From: an uncultured Clostridia bacterium
GTDB taxonomy: Bacteria > Bacillota > Clostridia > Oscillospirales > Ruminococcaceae
Direction: 5' to 3'
Length of the DNA: 8,006 bases
Assembly (NCBI GenBank): GCA_945931735.1
Contig: CAMEPN010000070.1
Coordinates: forward strand, 1 to 8,006
Of the stretch, positions 187-8,006 are shown in pieces (position 1 is the stretch's first letter; each line of letters begins with the position of its first letter). The position numbers and the translations under genes were made by a program. A model generated the notes under the pieces. That model did not search any database and was not told the DNA's origin. It was given only the letters and a program-made list of their open reading frames with translations.

Positions 187-206
187 AAAAAAAGGGAGTG
201 ACAGCT

Positions 207-1556
207 ATGGAGCAGGTTCGGCAGATTGACGAGCTGAAAAACTGGGACGTGCCTATCGCGAACGTCGACGAGATCAACGAGCTTCTAAGACGGTACGGCG
301 TAAAGTTCGGCATCTATAAAAACGGGGTGTTCAAGGAACAGCTTTTCCCGTTTGACCCGATACCGAGGATAATCACCGCGCAGGATTTCGCGGGAATAGA
401 AAAGGGACTTATCCAGCGTGTGGACGCGCTGAATATGTTCATCTACGATATCTACCACGACAAAAAAATAATCGCCGACAAGGTCGTACCCGAGGATTTC
501 GTATATATCTCAAGCGGCTATCTGCCGCAGTGCGAGGGACTGACCCCGCCGAAGAATATTTACAGCCATATTTCGGGAATAGACCTTGTTCTCGGAAAGG
601 ACGGCGAGTGGTATATTCTCGAGGACAATCTCCGCATACCGTCGGGCGCATCATATCCGCTTATCGCGCGCGAGCTGACGAGAGTCGCCTCTCCGAAAGC
701 GTTCACCGATAACCCCATTGTTGACAACCGCAACTATGCGCAGCTTCTGCGCGACACGATGGACAACGTGAACTGCGGAGGAATAAACGCGATACTGACC
801 CCGGGGCGCTACAATGCCGCATATTTTGAGCACAGCTACCTTGCGGAGCTTTCGGGCGCGGCGCTTGTTTCCAACGACGAGCTGTTCGTTGAGAACAATA
901 TTCTCTATCACAAGACCTATTCGGGTGGAAGGACGAAAATAGGCGCGCTTTACCGCAGAATTTCCGACGAGTATCTTGACCCGCTGACGTTTGAAGCGAA
1001 GTCGCTTATCGGCATTCCTAACCTTATGGAGGCGTACCGCTCGGGCAATGTCGCGATAATCAACGCGCCCGGCAACGGCGTTGCGGACGACAAGGGCATC
1101 TACTATTTCGTCCCGAAGATGATAAAATATTACCTCGGCGAAGAACCGATACTTAAAAACGCCCCGACATACCTGCCTTTTTACGAGGAGGACAGGAAAT
1201 ATGTTCTCGACAACATCGGCAAGCTTGTCATCAAGGACGTTGCCGAGGCTGGCGGTTACGGCGTCGTTTTCGGAAGCGACCTTTCCGCAGAGAAGCTGGA
1301 GGAGTTCAAACAGACGATAATCCGCGAACCCCGCAGATTTATCGCGCAGGAGGTAATTGATTTCTGCGACCTGCCGATATTCGAGGGCGGGGAAAAGGTA
1401 ATGAGGAAAGCCGACCTGCGTGCGTTCGTGCTTTCGGGAGAAAAGACGAGGGTATGGGCTTCGGGGCTTACGAGATTTTCCAGAAATCCCGACAGCTTTG
1501 TTGTAAACTCGTCACAGGGAGGAGGATTTAAGGACACATGGGTACTATCTCGATAG
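207..1556 (+). CDS. Circularly permuted ATP-grasp amidoligase (COG2308 family)
   Basis: Predicted cytoplasmic ATP-dependent ligase of the circularly permuted ATP-grasp type; such enzymes activate a carboxylate as acylphosphate and join it to an amine. Counting from ATG 207 (449 aa), the family signature DGEWYILEDNLRIPSGASY spans residues 132-150. A nucleotide-binding segment with K343 and the glycines 349-352 follows, then the acidic/basic pair D403-x-R405. The C-terminus ends in the family motif SSQGGGFKDTWVL. The ATG at 207 is preferred because AGGGAG (193-198) sits 8 nt before it; an in-frame GTG at 198 overlaps that site. Length is normal for the family. It is the first gene of the operon and overlaps the alpha-E gene by 19 bp. 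In many bacteria ATP-grasp, alpha-E and transglutaminase genes travel together, and comparative genomics proposed a peptide-synthesis or peptide-tagging role. The substrate is unknown. Confidence 0.9.
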   Translation: MEQVRQIDELKNWDVPIANVDEINELLRRYGVKFGIYKNGVFKEQLFPFDPIPRIITAQDFAGIEKGLIQRVDALNMFIYDIYHDKKIIADKVVPEDFVYISSGYLPQCEGLTPPKNIYSHISGIDLVLGKDGEWYILEDNLRIPSGASYPLIARELTRVASPKAFTDNPIVDNRNYAQLLRDTMDNVNCGGINAILTPGRYNAAYFEHSYLAELSGAALVSNDELFVENNILYHKTYSGGRTKIGALYRRISDEYLDPLTFEAKSLIGIPNLMEAYRSGNVAIINAPGNGVADDKGIYYFVPKMIKYYLGEEPILKNAPTYLPFYEEDRKYVLDNIGKLVIKDVAEAGGYGVVFGSDLSAEKLEEFKQTIIREPRRFIAQEVIDFCDLPIFEGGEKVMRKADLRAFVLSGEKTRVWASGLTRFSRNPDSFVVNSSQGGGFKDTWVLSR

Positions 1557-2254
1557 AACACGGCGACCGCCTTTTCTGGCTGGGACGCTATACCGAAAGG
1601 GCATACACCACCTTAAAGGCGCTGGAGAAGCTTTACGACAGAGCAATCGACAGCAGCCCCGATGAATATAAGAAGTATCTCGCCGCATTCGGGCTTAGCG
1701 ACAGCTACGGCGGCAAGGAGGAGTTCTTCCGCAGCTTCATTTTTGACAAGGACAACCCAAGCTCCGTTGCGGCGAGCCTTGTCAGAGCATACGACAACGG
1801 TATCGTGCTGCGCGAGGAGATCTCCACAGAAGCGCTGTCTTTCCTGCAAATGGCAATGGACAGGCTGGAAAGCACCAAGCATTCCTCTCAGGCGCTTTGC
1901 CTTTCGCTGCTGCCGCTGGAGGATATCATGTTCGGCTTCTGGGGCTGCGTAGGCGAGTATGTTTACGACGAGGAGATAAGAACGATAATCGAATGCGGGA
2001 AATACGTCGAGCGGCTCGACCTCTATTTCCGCCTGAAATATCCGTTCTCCGCGATCGAGAGGGAGTTCGGGCGGCTTTGCGCGAGCCTGCGTAATGTCCC
2101 GAAGAACACGCCTTACCGCTATAACACAAAGCAGCTATGCACCCTTGTCGAGGTCGTCGGCTTGGGCGAGGGCTATACCTCGGGCAGCGGGGAAGCAATA
2201 TCCGCCCTCGGAAGGCTTTTCGAGCCTGTCAGAAGAAGCGTAATGGCGGGCTGA
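1538..2254 (+). CDS. Alpha-E domain protein (COG2307/DUF403), short form
   Basis: An all-helical alpha-E protein of 238 aa, the usual partner of the upstream ATP-grasp enzyme. The N-terminal motif DRLFWLGRYTERA at residues 10-22 is the family hallmark. A central segment (about 90-125) and later charged helices (about 145-175) also fit. No membrane segment or signal peptide is visible, so it should act in the cytoplasm, probably in a complex with the ligase. Its biochemical role is not established. The start at 1538 lies inside the end of the ligase gene, with GGGAGGAGG (1518-1526) as ribosome binding site, which suggests translational coupling. Typical members are roughly 300 aa or longer, so this copy is noticeably short. 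The reading frame is intact and the gene ends cleanly 38 bp before the next one, so this looks like a compact variant rather than a broken gene. Confidence 0.85.
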   Translation: MGTISIEHGDRLFWLGRYTERAYTTLKALEKLYDRAIDSSPDEYKKYLAAFGLSDSYGGKEEFFRSFIFDKDNPSSVAASLVRAYDNGIVLREEISTEALSFLQMAMDRLESTKHSSQALCLSLLPLEDIMFGFWGCVGEYVYDEEIRTIIECGKYVERLDLYFRLKYPFSAIEREFGRLCASLRNVPKNTPYRYNTKQLCTLVEVVGLGEGYTSGSGEAISALGRLFEPVRRSVMAG

Positions 2255-2292
2255 GCGCAATATAAAGGTATACAGAAAGAAGTGAACAGAAC

Positions 2293-3078
2293 GTGAAAAA
2301 GCTGAATTTCACCTTTTCCACTAAGCTTACATTTGATAACTATGTCCACGACCACTCGATAGCGCTGCGGTGTATTCCGCCGCAGACAGAAACGCAGCGG
2401 ATACTGTCCTGCGAGCTTGACATCTCTCCGCTGGTTTCAACCGAGCGAACTGTCGACGCATTCGGAAACTGCGTTACTTCGGGCTATCTTAAGAAGGAGC
2501 ACCGTTTCCTTGATTTTGAGGTCAGGGGTCAGGCGGAGATTGACAGCACGAAGCTGCGGAGTGATTTCATGCCGTGCTATCGGTATCAGTCCCCGCTGAC
2601 CAAGCCGGGCGACGGTATCAAGGCGTTTTATGAGAGCATTAAGGGCGAATGCAGCGGAAGCACGCCCGACGAGCGCGCTGCGTTCTTTTCGGACAGGTTG
2701 TACAGCGAGATGAGCTATGTTAGGGACAGCACGACGATAGACACCACCGCCGAGGAAGCTTTCGCGCAGAAAAAGGGCGTCTGTCAGGATTACACGCATA
2801 TCCTGCTGTCGCTGCTGCGCGCGGACGGAATACCCTGCCGATATATCGCGGGGCTGTCGAATTGCGACGGCGAAACGCATAGCTGGGCGGAATACTGGAC
2901 GGAGGACGGCTGGCGCGGGATAGACCCGACGAACAACTGCCTTACCAATGATTATTACCTCGTTTTGGCGCAGGGCAGAGATTACAGCGACTGCGCGATA
3001 GACCGCGGGGTAATGCTGGGAGCATACACAAGACAAATGCAGCTCATCGCTTCAAATCTGTCCGAGGAAGCGTATTGA
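2293..3078 (+). CDS. Transglutaminase-like cysteine enzyme (COG1305 family)
   Basis: A 261-aa protein with the bacterial transglutaminase-like N-terminal beta domain (about residues 5-100) and a papain-fold core. The catalytic triad is visible: C164 in GVCQDYTHI, H196 in THSWAEYW, and D211 in GIDPTNN. Members act as peptidases, amidases or acyl transferases on amide bonds. There is no signal peptide or membrane segment, so it shares the cytoplasm with the ligase it accompanies. The GTG start at 2293 is chosen because the N-terminal beta domain begins right after it and no ATG lies near. The upstream purine run AAAGAAGTG (2275-2284 region) is only a moderate ribosome binding site. It lies 38 bp after the alpha-E gene and 29 bp before the first M14 gene. 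It probably cleaves or transfers the product of the ligase, but the actual reaction is unknown. Confidence 0.88.
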   Translation: MKKLNFTFSTKLTFDNYVHDHSIALRCIPPQTETQRILSCELDISPLVSTERTVDAFGNCVTSGYLKKEHRFLDFEVRGQAEIDSTKLRSDFMPCYRYQSPLTKPGDGIKAFYESIKGECSGSTPDERAAFFSDRLYSEMSYVRDSTTIDTTAEEAFAQKKGVCQDYTHILLSLLRADGIPCRYIAGLSNCDGETHSWAEYWTEDGWRGIDPTNNCLTNDYYLVLAQGRDYSDCAIDRGVMLGAYTRQMQLIASNLSEEAY

Positions 3079-3107
3079 TAAAAAAGGGAAAAGCGGGAGG
3101 AAAAATA

Positions 3108-4058
3108 ATGGTCAAAACAGTAACGCAGGCTGCGCTTGCGGTAAATGAAAAGCTGACTATCCGTAAAAATCGGATAAAGAACGGAACAGGAAAAAAGAGG
3201 CTCTGCCTTGTTACGGGAATACACGGCGACGAGCTTGAGGGGCAGTATCTTGCATATCTCGTCGGGAAACGTCTGAACGACGAGATAGGCTGCCTTAACG
3301 GAACGGTCGACATTTATCCTGCGATGAACCCGCTCGGGATAGATTCCATTACGCGCGGGATACCCAAGTTCGACCTTGATATGAACAGGATATTCCCCGG
3401 CAGCCGCGACGGCACGCTTATGGAATCGGTCTGCGCGGCGGTCGTTGACGACATCAACGGCGCGGATATCTGCGTGGATGTTCATTCGAGCAATATATAT
3501 CTAAAGGAGCTTCCGCAGATAAGGATAAGCGTCCCGACTGCGCATACTCTTATTCCTTACGCAAAAATGATGAACGTGGACTTTATCTGGGTCCACGACG
3601 CTGCGACTGTCCTTGAGTCAACTCTGGCACATACGCTTAACAGCCGCGGCACAAAGACCCTTGTCGTTGAGATGGGCGTCGGTATGCGTATCACCGAGGA
3701 ATACTGCCACCAGCTCTGCGAGGGCGTGTTTAATCTTTTAAAGGAGCTTGATATGTGGAGCGGCGCGGTGCAGCCCGTCAGAGAGCCTATCGTATCGCTC
3801 AACCGCTCGGTCGGATTTGTAAACTCCGACGCGGCGGGGATATTTGTGCCGTGCCGGAGGTTCGGCGACCATGTTAAGAAAGGCGAGCATATCGGCGACG
3901 TGCTCGACCCGCTAACAAGCACCGTTTCCGCGCAGATAAACGCCGTATGCGACGGCATGATATTCACGCTTCGGGAATACCCGATAGTGTTCGGCGGATC
4001 GCTGCTCGCGCGCATACTCCAGCCCGAGGATAACGGAAAGGAGGGCGGTGCGCTGTGA
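3108..4058 (+). CDS. M14-type zinc deacylase, AstE/AspA (aspartoacylase-like) family, intact active site
   Basis: A 316-aa metallo-hydrolase of the succinylglutamate desuccinylase/aspartoacylase family, which hydrolyses amide bonds of N-acyl amino acids or related compounds. Zinc ligands are H39 and E42 in GIHGDE and H126 in DVHSS. The substrate-binding pair N93-R94 lies in DLDMNRIFPG, and the catalytic glutamate is E188 in LVVEMG. The C-terminal part (about 240-310) is the small beta domain usual for the family. All key residues are present, so it should be active. ATG 3108 is preferred because GGGAGG (3095-3100) sits 7 nt upstream. An in-frame TTG at 3075, overlapping the transglutaminase stop, would add 11 residues that look like untranslated spacer. 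The stop overlaps the start of its paralogue in GTGA. The position in a ligase operon suggests it trims or reverses an amide product; the specific substrate cannot be read from sequence. Confidence 0.88.
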   Translation: MVKTVTQAALAVNEKLTIRKNRIKNGTGKKRLCLVTGIHGDELEGQYLAYLVGKRLNDEIGCLNGTVDIYPAMNPLGIDSITRGIPKFDLDMNRIFPGSRDGTLMESVCAAVVDDINGADICVDVHSSNIYLKELPQIRISVPTAHTLIPYAKMMNVDFIWVHDAATVLESTLAHTLNSRGTKTLVVEMGVGMRITEEYCHQLCEGVFNLLKELDMWSGAVQPVREPIVSLNRSVGFVNSDAAGIFVPCRRFGDHVKKGEHIGDVLDPLTSTVSAQINAVCDGMIFTLREYPIVFGGSLLARILQPEDNGKEGGAL

Positions 4059-4987
4059 AAAGAGAGATACTTTATACGATAAAATCCCCGTACAGAGAGC
4101 CGATGGACATTGTGGGCTTCTGCTTCGGAGGCGGCAGCAGGTCGATCGCGGTGGTCGGGGCGATGCGCGGCAACGAGGTGCAGCAGATGTACGTCTGCGC
4201 GCGGCTCGTAAAGGAGCTTGAAAAGCTCGAGAAGCGGCACGCAATAGCCGACGGAAAGGAAATACTTGTCATTCCGTGCGTGAATTACTATTCCATGAAT
4301 ATCGGCAAGCGCTTCTGGACAATGGACAACACGGATATCAACCGAATGTTCCCGGGCTACGACCTCGGCGAAACCACCCAGCGCATTGCGGACGGGGTTT
4401 TCTCGAATGTCAAGGACTACGAATACGGCATACAAATGGCGAGCTTTTATCAGCAGGGTGATTTCCTGCCCCATGTAAAGATGATGAAAACCGACTTTGC
4501 CGAGCCTGAGCTGATGTGTAAATTCGGCATGAGATACGGAATACTGCGCACTCCGCGCCCGTATGACACGACAACGCTGAACTTCAACTGGCAGATATGG
4601 GAAACAAAGGCGTTTTCGCTTTACACCAACGCGACGGACTTTATCGACGACTCCTCCGCGGAGGACGCGGTGACAGCTATTCTGCGCTTTATGAGCAGCG
4701 TCGGGATAATAAAAGGAAAGATACGTCCCGGCTACTGCACTGAGATAATCCACGAAAACGGGACGGAGCAGATACGCAGCGATGCCGCAGGAATTTTCCG
4801 CAGCATGACTCACGTCGGCGCGCACGTTGAGGAAAACGATATTCTCGGCAGGATAATAGACCCGCTTGACTGCTCCGAAAAATCAATTATCCGCGCGGAG
4901 CATTCGGGAGAGGTGTTCTTTGAGTACAACAAGCCGCTAATCGACGAAAGCACTATCTGCTTTAAGATAATCAAGGATACAAAATGA
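4055..4987 (+). CDS. M14/AstE-AspA paralogue with a degenerate active site (probable pseudoenzyme)
   Basis: A 310-aa relative of the preceding protein with the same fold order. AMRGNE (36-41) stands where GIHGDE should be, so the first zinc histidine is R38; E41 remains. The substrate-binding NR is kept (N96-R97 in NTDINRMFPG). The segment aligned with DVHSS reads IQMAS (126-130), without histidine. The segment aligned with the catalytic LVVEMG reads FSLYTN (187-192), with Y190 in place of glutamate. The C-terminal beta domain (about 235-308) is preserved and again begins with SDAAGIF, as in the partner. The reading frame is clean and translation is coupled to the partner (GTGA overlap, AGGAGG at 4039-4044), so it is kept for a function. 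Likely roles are non-catalytic partner, regulator or substrate-binding subunit; a different chemistry or metal site cannot be excluded. It is the last gene before the terminator. Confidence 0.82.
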   Translation: MKREILYTIKSPYREPMDIVGFCFGGGSRSIAVVGAMRGNEVQQMYVCARLVKELEKLEKRHAIADGKEILVIPCVNYYSMNIGKRFWTMDNTDINRMFPGYDLGETTQRIADGVFSNVKDYEYGIQMASFYQQGDFLPHVKMMKTDFAEPELMCKFGMRYGILRTPRPYDTTTLNFNWQIWETKAFSLYTNATDFIDDSSAEDAVTAILRFMSSVGIIKGKIRPGYCTEIIHENGTEQIRSDAAGIFRSMTHVGAHVEENDILGRIIDPLDCSEKSIIRAEHSGEVFFEYNKPLIDESTICFKIIKDTK

Positions 4988-4999
4988 TATTAATATATT

Positions 5000-5034
5000 G
5001 GGCGGCACTGCTGAATGACGGCGCCGCCCTTTTT
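5000..5034 (+). terminator. Rho-independent terminator of the five-gene operon
   Basis: GGGCGGC (5000-5006) pairs perfectly with GCCGCCC (5023-5029), followed directly by TTTTT (5030-5034). It begins 13 nt after the stop codon of the second M14 gene. The T-run abuts the first TTTGTTGTCC repeat of the next promoter, so the two transcription units are packed tightly. Confidence 0.9.
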
Positions 5035-5067
5035 GTTGTCCATTTGTTGTCCTTTGTGTGGTATTAT
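5032..5067 (+). promoter_or_regulatory. Activator-type promoter of the CNB gene: tandem TTTGTTGTCC repeats plus -10
   Basis: Two perfect copies of TTTGTTGTCC lie at 5032-5041 and 5043-5052 (11-bp pitch). A -10-like TATTAT follows at 5062-5067, exactly 9 nt after the second copy. A looser third copy (TTTGTGTGG, 5053-5061) fills the gap. The place where a -35 box should be (5039-5044) reads TCCATT, so the promoter probably needs an activator. The same element with identical spacing precedes the kinase gene at 6640-6675. Transcription would start near 5074, about 60 nt before the ATG. Confidence 0.75.
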
Positions 5068-5134
5068 TTACATAGACAGCTTTTGGAAAATTGGCAGAAG
5101 TCTAAGCTCTGCCCGAGATTTTGAGGTGCCAACA

Positions 5135-5632
5135 ATGGAAAACAAGCCTTTGATGAGAGTGTACGAGGAAGACGAAATAATAATGCGTGAGGGCGAAAGC
5201 TACGGCGAGATGTATAAAATCATCTCGGGAAGCGCGGCGCTGTATCTTGACTACGGCGGCGCGGACGAGTACCTTATCGGCGTTATTTCCGCGGGGAAAT
5301 GCTTCGGAGAGGTATCTCTCCTTGCGGGCAGACCCGAGCAGTATACGGTCGTTGCCGTTGACCGCGTTATGGTCATGGCAATAAGGGAAGAGCAGTTCGA
5401 GGGCTTTATAAAGGACAATCTGCACAATACGATCGACATCATGAAAAACATGGCTGACAGGATAGTTATGCTTAACAAGAACCTCGGACTTATTGCGGAC
5501 GAGCTGTACGAAAGCTATAAAGACGGGGAGAACAAAAACAGCGTTACCGGTCATTCAGATATTTCCGAGAAAATCAAGATGTATCGTATAATGTGTCTGA
5601 CCGGGCAGAATGATTTTTTAGGCAAGGTATGA
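5135..5632 (+). CDS. Small cyclic-nucleotide-binding-fold protein without a DNA-binding domain
   Basis: A 165-aa protein whose residues about 8-115 form a cNMP-binding beta-roll. Recognisable parts are IIMREGESYGEMYKIISG, the glycine-rich turn, and FGEVSLLAGRPEQYTVVA, which corresponds to the phosphate-binding cassette. The cassette keeps FGE, but the position normally held by the phosphate-binding arginine (PRxA) reads PEQY, so classical cAMP binding is doubtful. After the C-helix (about 115-150) there is only a short polar tail and no helix-turn-helix, so it is not a CRP-type regulator by itself. ATG 5135 is chosen because GAGG (5123-5126) sits 8 nt upstream; an in-frame ATG at 5015 lies inside the previous terminator. 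It may be a signalling adaptor under the same control as the histidine kinase. Its ligand and partner are unknown. Confidence 0.8.
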   Translation: MENKPLMRVYEEDEIIMREGESYGEMYKIISGSAALYLDYGGADEYLIGVISAGKCFGEVSLLAGRPEQYTVVAVDRVMVMAIREEQFEGFIKDNLHNTIDIMKNMADRIVMLNKNLGLIADELYESYKDGENKNSVTGHSDISEKIKMYRIMCLTGQNDFLGKV

Positions 5633-5680
5633 CGTTTTCGTAAGACAATAATGAGCAGGCTTTAATGTTGACATACGAAA

Positions 5681-5711
5681 AAATGGGACGAATTGAACAT
5701 TCGTCCCATTT
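5681..5711 (-). terminator. Terminator hairpin between convergent CNB and response regulator genes
   Basis: AAATGGGACGAAT (5681-5693) pairs perfectly with ATTCGTCCCATTT (5699-5711) over a 5-nt loop. On the - strand the hairpin is followed by a run of T (the A-run 5678-5683 on the + strand), an ideal terminator for the response regulator. On the + strand the tail is only TTTGATAT, so it may also stop CNB transcription, less strongly. An outer inverted pair TTTTCGTA (5635-5642) and TACGAAAA (5674-5681) flanks it on the CNB side. Confidence 0.85.
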
Positions 5712-5727
5712 GATATGTATTTAGGGT

Positions 5728-6543
5728 TTAACCTATACCCGCATATTTTCCTGTCGTAAACTCTGCCCATGAGTAGTTTGCCATATATTCCCCGTGGAAG
5801 GAGTTTATCGCAGGAACATTCATGTTTTCATAGTCGTAGGCGTCGCATTTTATTTTCGACACGTCTATCGCAATGTGGTTCCAGCTTTTTATCAGAATAT
5901 CGCCTATCCCCGCCGAATTGAGCGTTTTTCTGAGAGAAGCGACGATGGTCGTTGTCATGTTTTTGACATTCACGTCGTAGAGAACGTCCTCCCACAAAAT
6001 CGCCGCGATCTGTTTTGTTGTAACGGAAGCGCCGTGCCTGTCCACAAGAAATGCGAGCAGCTCCTTGGATTTTTCGCGCTCAAATGTGAGCATCTTCCCG
6101 TTTACGAAAACCTCGAAGTTACCGAATGTCTGCACTCTGACTTCATTTGCGGAGGGGGACGGCTCGGCGCGCCATCCCGTTTCTATTTCATTTACGACGC
6201 GGCGAATGTCCTCGGCGCGCACCGGTTTCAGAAGATATCCCTTTGCAAACACTCCGAAAGCGTCAAAGGCATATTCGCTGTAAGCCGTGCAGAAAATAAT
6301 GGTCAATTTCGGGAATTGCTCCTTAAGCTGTCTTGCAAGCTCAAGACCGCTCATTCCGCTCATCTGTATATCAAGGAATGCATACGAAAGCTGCTCTCCG
6401 CTGATGTTAAGGGCTTTAACCCATTCCATCGCCGCGGAAGGCTTTCTTTCGCTGTGGATAGTGTCGTCGGGGAATACCGTCTTTAGTTCGTTTGCAAGCG
6501 ACTCCAGCGCAGGTCGCTCGTCGTCTACCGCCAATATGTACAT
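5728..6543 (-). CDS. Response regulator: receiver domain plus SARP-like winged helix
   Basis: A 271-aa two-component regulator. The receiver domain (1-120) has the acidic pocket D7/D8, phosphoacceptor D58 in FLDIQMSG, T86 and K106 (KP), all intact. After a short linker, residues about 135-232 form an OmpR/SARP-type winged helix (VRVQTFGNFEVFVNG, then LLAFLVDRHGASVTTKQIAAILWED). The tail HGEYMANYSWAEF resembles the first helix of the bacterial transcriptional activator (BTAD) domain, the rest of which is absent. This is the architecture of SARP-family response regulators (COG3947-like), which bind direct heptamer repeats at 11-bp pitch just upstream of -10 boxes. The start at 6543 is fixed by an in-frame stop two codons upstream; the ribosome binding site (GGAA) is weak. 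It is divergent from the kinase gene at 6718, its likely partner. Confidence 0.88.
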   Translation of the reverse strand: MYILAVDDERPALESLANELKTVFPDDTIHSERKPSAAMEWVKALNISGEQLSYAFLDIQMSGMSGLELARQLKEQFPKLTIIFCTAYSEYAFDAFGVFAKGYLLKPVRAEDIRRVVNEIETGWRAEPSPSANEVRVQTFGNFEVFVNGKMLTFEREKSKELLAFLVDRHGASVTTKQIAAILWEDVLYDVNVKNMTTTIVASLRKTLNSAGIGDILIKSWNHIAIDVSKIKCDAYDYENMNVPAINSFHGEYMANYSWAEFTTGKYAGIG

Positions 6544-6579
6544 TGTTCATCATTCCGTTTCGTTTATATAATTAATAAT

Positions 6580-6608
6580 ATTATAGCAGAAAAGAGCAGC
6601 ATTGTCAA
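6580..6608 (-). promoter_or_regulatory. Consensus promoter of the response regulator gene (extended -10)
   Basis: On the - strand, TTGACA (6608-6603) is followed after exactly 17 nt by TATAAT (6585-6580), preceded by TGC, giving the extended -10 form TGCTATAAT. Transcription should start near 6573, about 30 nt before the ATG at 6543. The TTTGTTGTCC repeats that serve the kinase gene lie more than 30 bp upstream of this -35 box, so the regulator is probably made constitutively. Confidence 0.87.
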
Positions 6609-6639
6609 TTTTTTATCGAAAAAATGTAGAAAATGCTCA

Positions 6640-6675
6640 TTTGTTGTCCTTTTGTTGTCCGTATTGTTGTATAAT
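6640..6675 (+). promoter_or_regulatory. Activator-type promoter of the kinase gene: tandem TTTGTTGTCC repeats plus -10
   Basis: Perfect copies of TTTGTTGTCC lie at 6640-6649 and 6651-6660 (11-bp pitch). A perfect -10 TATAAT follows at 6670-6675, 9 nt after the second copy. A partial third copy (ATTGTTGT, 6663-6670) runs into the -10. No -35 hexamer exists at the right distance (6647-6652 reads TCCTTT). Transcription would start near 6682, giving a leader of about 36 nt. Confidence 0.8.
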
Positions 6676-6717: not shown

Positions 6718-8006
6718 TTGAAAAATAAAAGGATAATCGAGAAAATATATATTTTGATTCCGGCTGTTTTGATGCTTCTTGCGGCTGCGTCGGTGCTTTT
6801 CGCTTGTCTTGGAAACAATCAGTCGTTTCCTGCTATTATTTTTCCGTATATTTTTAAGGGAGAATACAGCGTCGACGGAGGCAAAACGTGGGACGATCTT
6901 AACGAGGACGCTAGCTTTTCCGCTCTGGACGGCGGGCTGATACTTCGCGGGAACTTTGATGTTCCGATCTCAAGCGGTTCATCGCTCAATTTTTACCTTG
7001 ACCACATTACCGCGGAAATATATGTAAACGGGGAATTGTCTTTTGTTGACAGCAGAACGCTGTTCGGACCGACTGCTTCGGGCTGCTGCCGTGATTGGAT
7101 GGAGTGGATCACTCCGGAAATCGGCGAGGATGACATCGTTGAAATTCATCTCGACAATTATCATAACTTCGGAAATAAAAACGCGTACAACGAATTTTTA
7201 GGTTCTTTGTATTTCGGCTCGGAAGAACGCTTCAGCAGCTTTATGCTAAAGACAGGACAGGTCGAAAGGTACATAGGCGTTCCCGTGACGGTCATTGCGG
7301 TGATGCTCCTGTCGGTTTCGGCGGCATTCTGGCTCCTGCGAATTGACGGGGGCAAGCCCATATGCCTGCTTGGACTGCTCGCGCTGTCATTCGGCGTTTG
7401 GATAACGCTCGATACAGTCGATCTCCCCCTGTGGAGCGGCAATCATATTTTCAACACCTACGGAATATCCCTGAGCATGATGCTTGCGGCGATTTTCGCA
7501 GTGTTCAGCGCGGCGGATATACTCAAGACCCCGGCTTCGCGCGTCGCAAAGGCTGCCGCTGCGGTGTTGGCGGCGGTGGACGCTGTTTTGCTCGTGCTTT
7601 CCATCACGGGTGCAATGCTGATTTATGACACATGGATATATCGCCTTGTCGTAAGCTTGGCTGTGTTTGCTGTGGTATTGGGCTGCTGTGTTTACGAGTT
7701 TGTCCGCAGCCCCTCAGGCAGGACCGTTTCGCTGATATCCTATACGGTGCTGATCGCCTCGCTGCTGGCGGACGCTGTGCTTTATCTTGTTGAATACGAC
7801 CATGCGGGCGTATGCTCAAAGGTAGTTTTTCTGGCGCTGTTTTTAATGAACCTTGTGATAATCATAAAGGTTATCCCTGCGGATTATCGTTCCGCGCGAA
7901 AGACAGAAAAGCTTGAGGCAGAGCTTGCAGACAGCCGCATTTCCATTATGCTCAGCCAGATACAGCCGCATTTCCTGTACAATGCGCTCAACTCTATATA
8001 TTACCT
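6718..8006 (+). CDS. Sensor histidine kinase, 7TM-type with LytS-like HisKA (partial at the window end)
   Basis: The 429 residues visible here belong to a membrane sensor kinase that continues beyond the window. An N-terminal hydrophobic segment (about 10-31) precedes an extracellular domain (about 32-184) that looks beta-rich. Seven predicted membrane helices follow (about 186-207, 213-231, 248-269, 279-301, 307-327, 337-358, 367-386). This resembles the 7TMR-DISM sensor architecture. A short coiled coil (about 390-412) leads into SQIQPHFLYNALNSIYY, the LytS/YehU-type HisKA motif with phosphoacceptor H418. The ATP-binding domain lies outside the window. TTG 6718 is chosen as start because GGAG (6706-6709) is 8 nt upstream and the nearby ATGs (6710, 6713) are out of frame and reach a stop at once. 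It is divergent from the response regulator and is its probable partner. The signal sensed is unknown. Confidence 0.88.
   Translation, partial: MKNKRIIEKIYILIPAVLMLLAAASVLFACLGNNQSFPAIIFPYIFKGEYSVDGGKTWDDLNEDASFSALDGGLILRGNFDVPISSGSSLNFYLDHITAEIYVNGELSFVDSRTLFGPTASGCCRDWMEWITPEIGEDDIVEIHLDNYHNFGNKNAYNEFLGSLYFGSEERFSSFMLKTGQVERYIGVPVTVIAVMLLSVSAAFWLLRIDGGKPICLLGLLALSFGVWITLDTVDLPLWSGNHIFNTYGISLSMMLAAIFAVFSAADILKTPASRVAKAAAAVLAAVDAVLLVLSITGAMLIYDTWIYRLVVSLAVFAVVLGCCVYEFVRSPSGRTVSLISYTVLIASLLADAVLYLVEYDHAGVCSKVVFLALFLMNLVIIIKVIPADYRSARKTEKLEAELADSRISIMLSQIQPHFLYNALNSIYY

Follow-up and report, generated by a model that had tools for sequence, protein, structure and literature searches.

Tandem 11-bp repeats beside a clostridial response regulator gene: predicted operators for a regulator with a SARP-type winged helix

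What reads the word TTTGTTGTCC, which stands four times in front of two genes of an uncultured Clostridia bacterium? The window analysed here, 8,006 nt in length, is the whole of contig C70 of the host genome (G000; 2.15 Mb in 377 contigs, 70% complete) and encodes a response regulator between the two places at which the word occurs. The original prediction held that the copies are operators of this regulator, that the regulator is SARP-like, and that it co-activates the two genes behind the repeats, one for a cyclic-nucleotide-binding (CNB) protein and one for a sensor histidine kinase. The comparisons below lead to a closely related reading: the four copies are probably two tandem operators bound by a SARP-type regulator, which would activate the CNB and kinase genes in place of a -35 contact.

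The copies of TTTGTTGTCC lie at 5032–5041, 5043–5052, 6640–6649 and 6651–6660, with a pitch of 11 bp within both pairs. Operator 1 (TTTGTTGTCC-A-TTTGTTGTCC, 5032–5052, + strand) is followed by a 9-nt spacer (5053–5061, + strand) and the -10 box TATTAT of the CNB-gene promoter (5062–5067, + strand); operator 2 (TTTGTTGTCC-T-TTTGTTGTCC, 6640–6660, + strand) is followed by a 9-nt spacer (6661–6669, + strand) and the -10 box TATAAT of the kinase-gene promoter (6670–6675, + strand). TG stands one base before the -10 box at the first site (TGG-TATTAT; TG at 5059–5060, an extended -10) and is missing at the second. Both promoters are without a -35 element, as indicated by a scan for sigma-70-type -35/-10 pairs (4/6 in each hexamer), which found none at either. 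No further exact copy is present on either strand of the window, the next best being one single-mismatch copy. The arrangement originally described, namely four copies in two pairs of 11-bp pitch, a 9-nt gap from each pair to its -10 box, no -35 box and no further copy, is thus borne out to the exact position. Allowing up to two mismatches, 21 matches occur in the window against 6.2 ± 2.6 in 200 shuffled versions (largest 14). The spacers and flanks of the two sites are unlike each other.

Immediately upstream of operator 1 lies a hairpin (5000–5029, + strand) whose T-tract runs into the operator. Folding of the RNA at 4996–5041 gave −20.2 kcal/mol (z −3.44); the hairpin is missing from the list of a simple terminator scan. 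It likely serves as the intrinsic terminator of the upstream genes, so that the CNB gene is likely its own transcription unit. Those upstream genes form a run of five (198–4987), encoding a circularly permuted ATP-grasp, an Alpha-E, a transglutaminase-like and two AstE/AspA-type proteins, which may constitute a single operon for the synthesis or modification of a small peptide or amide; the hairpin at its 3' end is the one that carries operator 1. The CNB gene itself, predicted target 1 (5135–5632, + strand), encodes a single-domain protein of 165 aa (PF00027, E 2.4e-17) in which Pfam detected no DNA-binding domain. It converges with the regulator gene (271 aa; 5728–6543, − strand) upon a bidirectional, terminator-like hairpin of 13 pairs (5681–5711). 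The regulator gene has its own promoter, TTGACA-N17-TATAAT (6580–6608, − strand), matching the consensus at 12/12 positions, with TG before the -10 box and no repeat within it, and is therefore likely constitutive; TTGACA-N17-TATAAT also lies ahead of the homologous regulator gene in locus L008 (3910–3938). The kinase gene, predicted target 2 (6718–8006, + strand; PF06580), has a TTG start, is cut by the contig end and likely encodes the partner of the regulator.

Residues 3–117 of the regulator form a receiver domain (PF00072, E 4e-16), and the recognition helix of the DNA-binding domain lies at about residues 191–210 in a structure model. The Pfam family Trans_reg_C matched the regulator weakly, at 21.8 bits, which is below its curated cut-off of 26.2, and gave some match at E up to 10 in 10 of 15 homologues. 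A profile of 14 homologous DNA-binding domains, searched against PDB sequences, ranked EmbR (3e-5) and AfsR (0.002) ahead of any OmpR-type regulator (the next at 0.1), which argues that the winged helix belongs to the SARP branch. The BTAD family was found in none of the 15 homologues at E up to 10 and not in the window regulator at E up to 1, and the approximately 40 residues C-terminal to the winged helix form no helical domain in the model. Since no BTA domain was found, SARP membership was rejected for the regulator as a whole; the term SARP-like thus holds for the winged helix, by its EmbR/AfsR profile, and not for the entire protein. Structure does not decide between the SARP and PhoB branches, given that the model is only fair (pLDDT 77, pTM 0.54), that Foldseek with the full model placed OmpR/PhoB types on top (PrrA, DrrB and PhoP first), and that the VIA list offered little coverage outside the receiver domain (residues 1–126). 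With the regulator as query, a search at E ≤ 1e-10 retrieved 2,980 homologous proteins, and for 5 of the 120 homologues listed one source gives the name 'two-component SAPR family response regulator', a JGI name corresponding to COG3947. Proteins of COG3947 combine a receiver domain, a winged helix and a BTAD; of this architecture the window regulator has receiver and winged helix, and the BTAD was not found.

Searches with the literal letters of the operator recover little. In the host genome, the pair with up to three mismatches was found at the two window places and at one three-mismatch place only, and the reversed pair pattern (up to three mismatches) had no match in the 2.15 Mb of this 70%-complete assembly. 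The literal 21-mer with up to two mismatches was present in 5 of 150 genomes, the host included. The reason is that the repeat letters change between regulators, and taken alone this scarcity would resemble a refutation. Sites are compared below at two levels, the letters shared by close relatives and the layout shared by the wider family.

For close relatives a strict pattern, TGTCC-N6-TGTCC-N9-TANNNT with zero mismatches, was used. Among five genomes with chosen regulators it occurred five times in the host, three times each in G011 and G887, once in G740 and not at all in G787; its reversal occurred in none of the five. Two host sites besides those of the window fit the pattern, one in C62 before a GGDEF-domain gene region and one in C54 before a LacI-family gene, which would extend the predicted regulon, and the nine spacer letters of operator 1 recur at the former (G000:C62:5101–5132). 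Host matches in C239, C190 and C228, the last of them a strict one, were judged doubtful because of a poor -10 box or repeats outside the family pattern. In G011 all three sites share a contig with the regulator gene and are no more than 10 kb away from it. Across 150 relatives, eight strict sites fell in the two genomes with a full-length regulator of at least 67% identity (G000 and G011), and 11 of the 148 others held one each; the reversed strict pattern occurred 12 times in the 150. G003, with a 57-residue regulator fragment (64%), had none. The proposed co-occurrence of site and regulator is seen in G000 and G011 above the background of the remaining genomes.

Placement beside the gene is consistent among near homologues. 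All five placeable full-length regulators at 65–100% identity have TGTCC-N6-TGTC[C/G]-N9-TATAAT beside their gene. In G887 the first site starts 72 bp past the regulator stop, ahead of a kinase 34% identical to that of the window. G740 belongs to another family and its regulator is 48% identical, and still its site, TTTGTTGTCC-T-TTTGTTGTCC-N9-TATAAT, reproduces window operator 2 letter for letter, with the -10 box about 60 bp past the regulator gene; the 21 letters of operator 2 stand beside a homologous regulator in locus L164. In locus L009 a strict site lies just past the regulator, and G787, which has no strict site genome-wide, carries the one-letter variant TGTCC-N6-TGTCG-N9-TATAAT past its own. 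The repeat letters are different in G782 (TGATGTGC), where the regulator is likewise 48% identical, and more distant homologues keep the layout with letters of their own.

Some further observations were made at these loci. A strict G887 site (L194, 2103) lies just ahead of a gene whose 152-aa product yielded a receiver domain as its only domain match. Genes of NHLP-type bacteriocin export lie near the regulator in G011 and G887 (L193 14351–18001, L059 38–2209, L192 4494–7653); two G011 proteins pass the curated NHLP cut-offs (TIGR03796, TIGR03797) and the G887 ones score below them. Pairs with three mismatches in L003 (G000) and two in L005 (G011) precede a like gene (MNAIYQLLNPDN.. and MNSIYQLLNPDN..) by about 300 nt but are on the other strand; they were not counted as operators.

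The layout was examined by scanning the surroundings of regulator homologues for tandem repeats of any letters at different pitches. In a first set of 33 loci (355 kb; repeats identical at 9/10 positions or better, gap to the -10 box 7–13), pitch 11 yielded 17 sites in 14 loci and every other pitch from 8 to 22 yielded 0–4. The larger set comprised the 93 loci fetched (749 kb), some of them near-duplicates from sister genomes, with partial and lower-ranked homologue matches left out. Here, with repeats of 9/10 or better placed 6–13 nt before a -10 box, 52 sites (49 distinct) were found at pitch 11 in 38 of the 93 loci, with a few places entered twice because two -10 candidates or both strands qualified, against 0–12 sites at every one of the 17 other pitches tried (7 to 24). 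The control pitches were not empty, with 12 sites at pitch 12 and 10 at pitch 24, and 55 of the 93 loci gave no site in this 9-of-10 scan. Of the pitch-11 sites, 34 lie within 600 bp of the regulator match, compared with 0–5 for each other pitch. When the best site within 450 bp on either side of the gene was taken, pitch 11 came out best in 36 of the 93 loci (ties shared) and other pitches in at most 6.6, and a score of at least 24 was reached in 18 loci at pitch 11 and in 0–2 at other pitches. Locus L062 resembles the window in having two similar tandem operators (4469 and 6527; TTTGTCATAG repeats). A single TGTTGCAC unit precedes TATAAT in G031 and two do so in G015 (L049 versus L051), apparently through loss of one 11-bp unit.

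The sites themselves were also compared with the protein. Thirty-three sites aligned at the -10 box fall into one register, which was not imposed by the scan: T-T-T-T-G-N-N-[GA]-[CT]-N-[CG], twice, followed by 9 nt and TATAAT, with T in 25/33 at the seventh place and G in 23/33 at the eighth. The 33 are a manual selection from earlier lists; duplicates (L052, L057) were left out, as were sites such as L054, L060, L061, L067, L150, L174 and L177 that were unlike or ambiguous, L161 was added from a separate look at its site, and L056, L128, L134 and L162 were kept despite scores below 22. Regulators with alike helices have alike last letters, as GKSYFRTILHEM with TTGTTGCGC; the helix GK-x-x-YFKSVRRDL goes with TTTTGGCGC and QKIISSMMK with TTGTCATTG. 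Over the 33 sites, helix similarity correlated with the last six repeat letters (Mantel r 0.446, p 0.0002) and not with the spacer (r 0.03, p 0.26), and receiver-domain similarity correlated with the same letters less than the helix did (r 0.19, p 0.01).

Mechanical choice of sites gave the same helix-letter relation at lower values (n = 30, r 0.386, p 0.0003; n = 42, r 0.285, p 0.0003). In the set of 30, the spacer was also weakly correlated (r 0.118, p 0.006), and among distant pairs the helix-letter value was 0.306 against −0.048 for the receiver domain. At six other pitches (n = 6 to 18) the helix-letter correlation never reached p < 0.05; two other correlations did, helix-spacer at pitch 12 (0.03) and receiver-letters at pitch 20 (0.008). 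Within the second repeat, 23 of the 30 mechanical sites keep the T of the third and the G of the fifth position, and TG precedes the -10 box in 17. That the conserved TTTT might be merely the T-tract of an upstream terminator was considered and rejected: a hairpin of this kind accompanies 7 of the 33 sites, but TTTTG stands in the second repeat too. A separate branch (L050, L053, L056, L062) has TTGTCA half-sites 12 nt before the -10 box and resembles the pho box.

Ownership of the repeats by the regulator between them, as originally claimed, is therefore well supported by comparison, through the pitch test, the close relatives and the covariation of helix and letters. The target genes are a different matter, and the original prediction as a whole is supported in part. 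G011 has a CNB orthologue, 55% identical and on the regulator's contig, with a TATAAT and no clear tandem pair. Its kinase homologue (32%) starts 12 nt after the preceding gene, in a gene run behind the regulator gene, and so lacks a site that would be its own; sites do lie at three other genes in the neighbourhood of the G011 regulator. Without a strict site at either homologue, the targets are not conserved there. Kinases in L139, L143, L144 and L149 are 42–46% identical to that of the window, and the sites near the regulator gene in L139, L143 and L149 lie past it, about 75–120 bp beyond the match, with other letters. Of the two proposed targets, the kinase gene gains from the site kept in G887, and neither homologue has one in G011; absence of sites before orthologues in relatives that keep the regulator, which was set as refuting the proposal, is thus found in G011 and not in G887. 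It appears that repeat ownership is conserved and the set of target genes is not, and the predicted control of the CNB gene is drawn from the perfect site in the window together with the closeness of the genes in two genomes.

Could the same sites be read otherwise? That the repeats are chance or a mobile repeat family is hardly credible. The 11 strict matches among 148 relatives lacking a close regulator, and the one spacer found at two host places (C70 and C62), would fit such an origin, but none of the 200 window shuffles reached the observed count, the 11-bp pitch stands far above other pitches, and neither spacer nor flanks are shared between the two sites of the window; the larger pitch test and the strict scan of 150 relatives largely refute it. 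Ownership by another transcription factor that happens to control genes adjoining the regulator deserves somewhat more weight and is still improbable. The G011 kinase and CNB homologues are without a strict site and the two further host sites precede unlike genes (GGDEF-domain and LacI-family), as such a factor would allow; against this, the repeat letters covary with the recognition helix of this very regulator family, sites are found at the regulator gene in different families, and strict sites are at background where a close regulator is missing.

A slightly stronger competitor, though one we consider unlikely, leaves the repeats to the regulator and reverses the sign, two molecules over the -35 region blocking RNA polymerase. 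Overlap with the expected -35 position is compatible with either sign, but neither promoter has a -35 element to block and the repeats keep one register to the -10 box across the family. Activator-dependent promoters often have TG before the -10 box, as do 17 of the 30 sites here. SARPs with this geometry activate, according to PMC10936776.

Activation is thus the preferred reading, and from sequence comparison we infer binding, phosphorylation, activation and sigma contact as its steps. The kinase would phosphorylate the regulator; two regulator molecules would then line up in head-to-tail order, each on its own 11-bp repeat and both on one DNA face just upstream of the -10 box, and there present sigma region 4 of RNA polymerase with a docking surface in the manner of the AfsR SARP domain. 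With the regulator constitutive and only the kinase and output genes induced, positive feedback on the sensor would result. The AfsR contact model may not apply to this regulator, given that a BTA domain was not found.

Among known systems, PhoB/OmpR regulators share the receiver and winged helix, and the pho box consists of head-to-tail 11-bp repeats replacing the -35 element; TGTCA half-sites of the pho-box kind occur at some homologue sites. The window regulator differs from this group in its sub-cut-off Trans_reg_C match and in a profile nearer EmbR/AfsR, while the Foldseek order points the other way. The 'SAPR family' (COG3947) shares its name with 5 of the 120 listed homologues, and the BTAD that belongs to it was not found here. 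SARP sites, according to PMC10936776, are direct repeats 11 or 22 bp apart with the 3' repeat 8 bp from the -10 box, and the -35 region is covered by the AfsR SARP dimer, which gives sigma region 4 another docking point; repeat number and letters vary between SARPs (PMC3367932). The SARP geometry invoked in the original prediction is accordingly present here, at 11 bp and 9 nt. Activators of the AfsR and ActII-ORF4/DnrI type from actinomycetes are alike, as far as these texts describe them, in winged helix, 11-bp direct repeats and placement at the -35 position, whereas in the present case a receiver domain has the DNA-binding domain as its output, a BTA domain was not found, the repeat letters are TTTTG-N6, the -10 box is near consensus and the hosts are Clostridia. 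Among the literature matches listed, mostly outside subscription journals, none gave an operator for SARP- or SAPR-type regulators of Clostridia or Firmicutes.

A more general proposal, to which we give about even chances, is that a clostridial response-regulator family reads an operator code of (TTTTG-N6) twice, 9 nt and a -10 box, in which TTTTG anchors the protein, the recognition helix reads the six variable letters, and the receiver domain does the dimerising that falls to the BTA domain in SARPs, so as to activate a promoter without a -35 box in SARP style. Under such a code, because the helix reads the six variable letters, the operator would be predictable from the helix and findable beside the gene.

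The finding is real, well supported by comparison and mechanistically familiar; what appears new is the operator of this regulator family, the missing detectable BTA domain and the family-wide operator rule. It provides a testable operator for this regulator and a rule predicting the operators of its relatives, including two with NHLP-type bacteriocin-export genes adjoining. The family would also offer a natural series of helix-operator pairs for the study of DNA reading by winged helices, and a simple inducible-promoter design for Clostridia.
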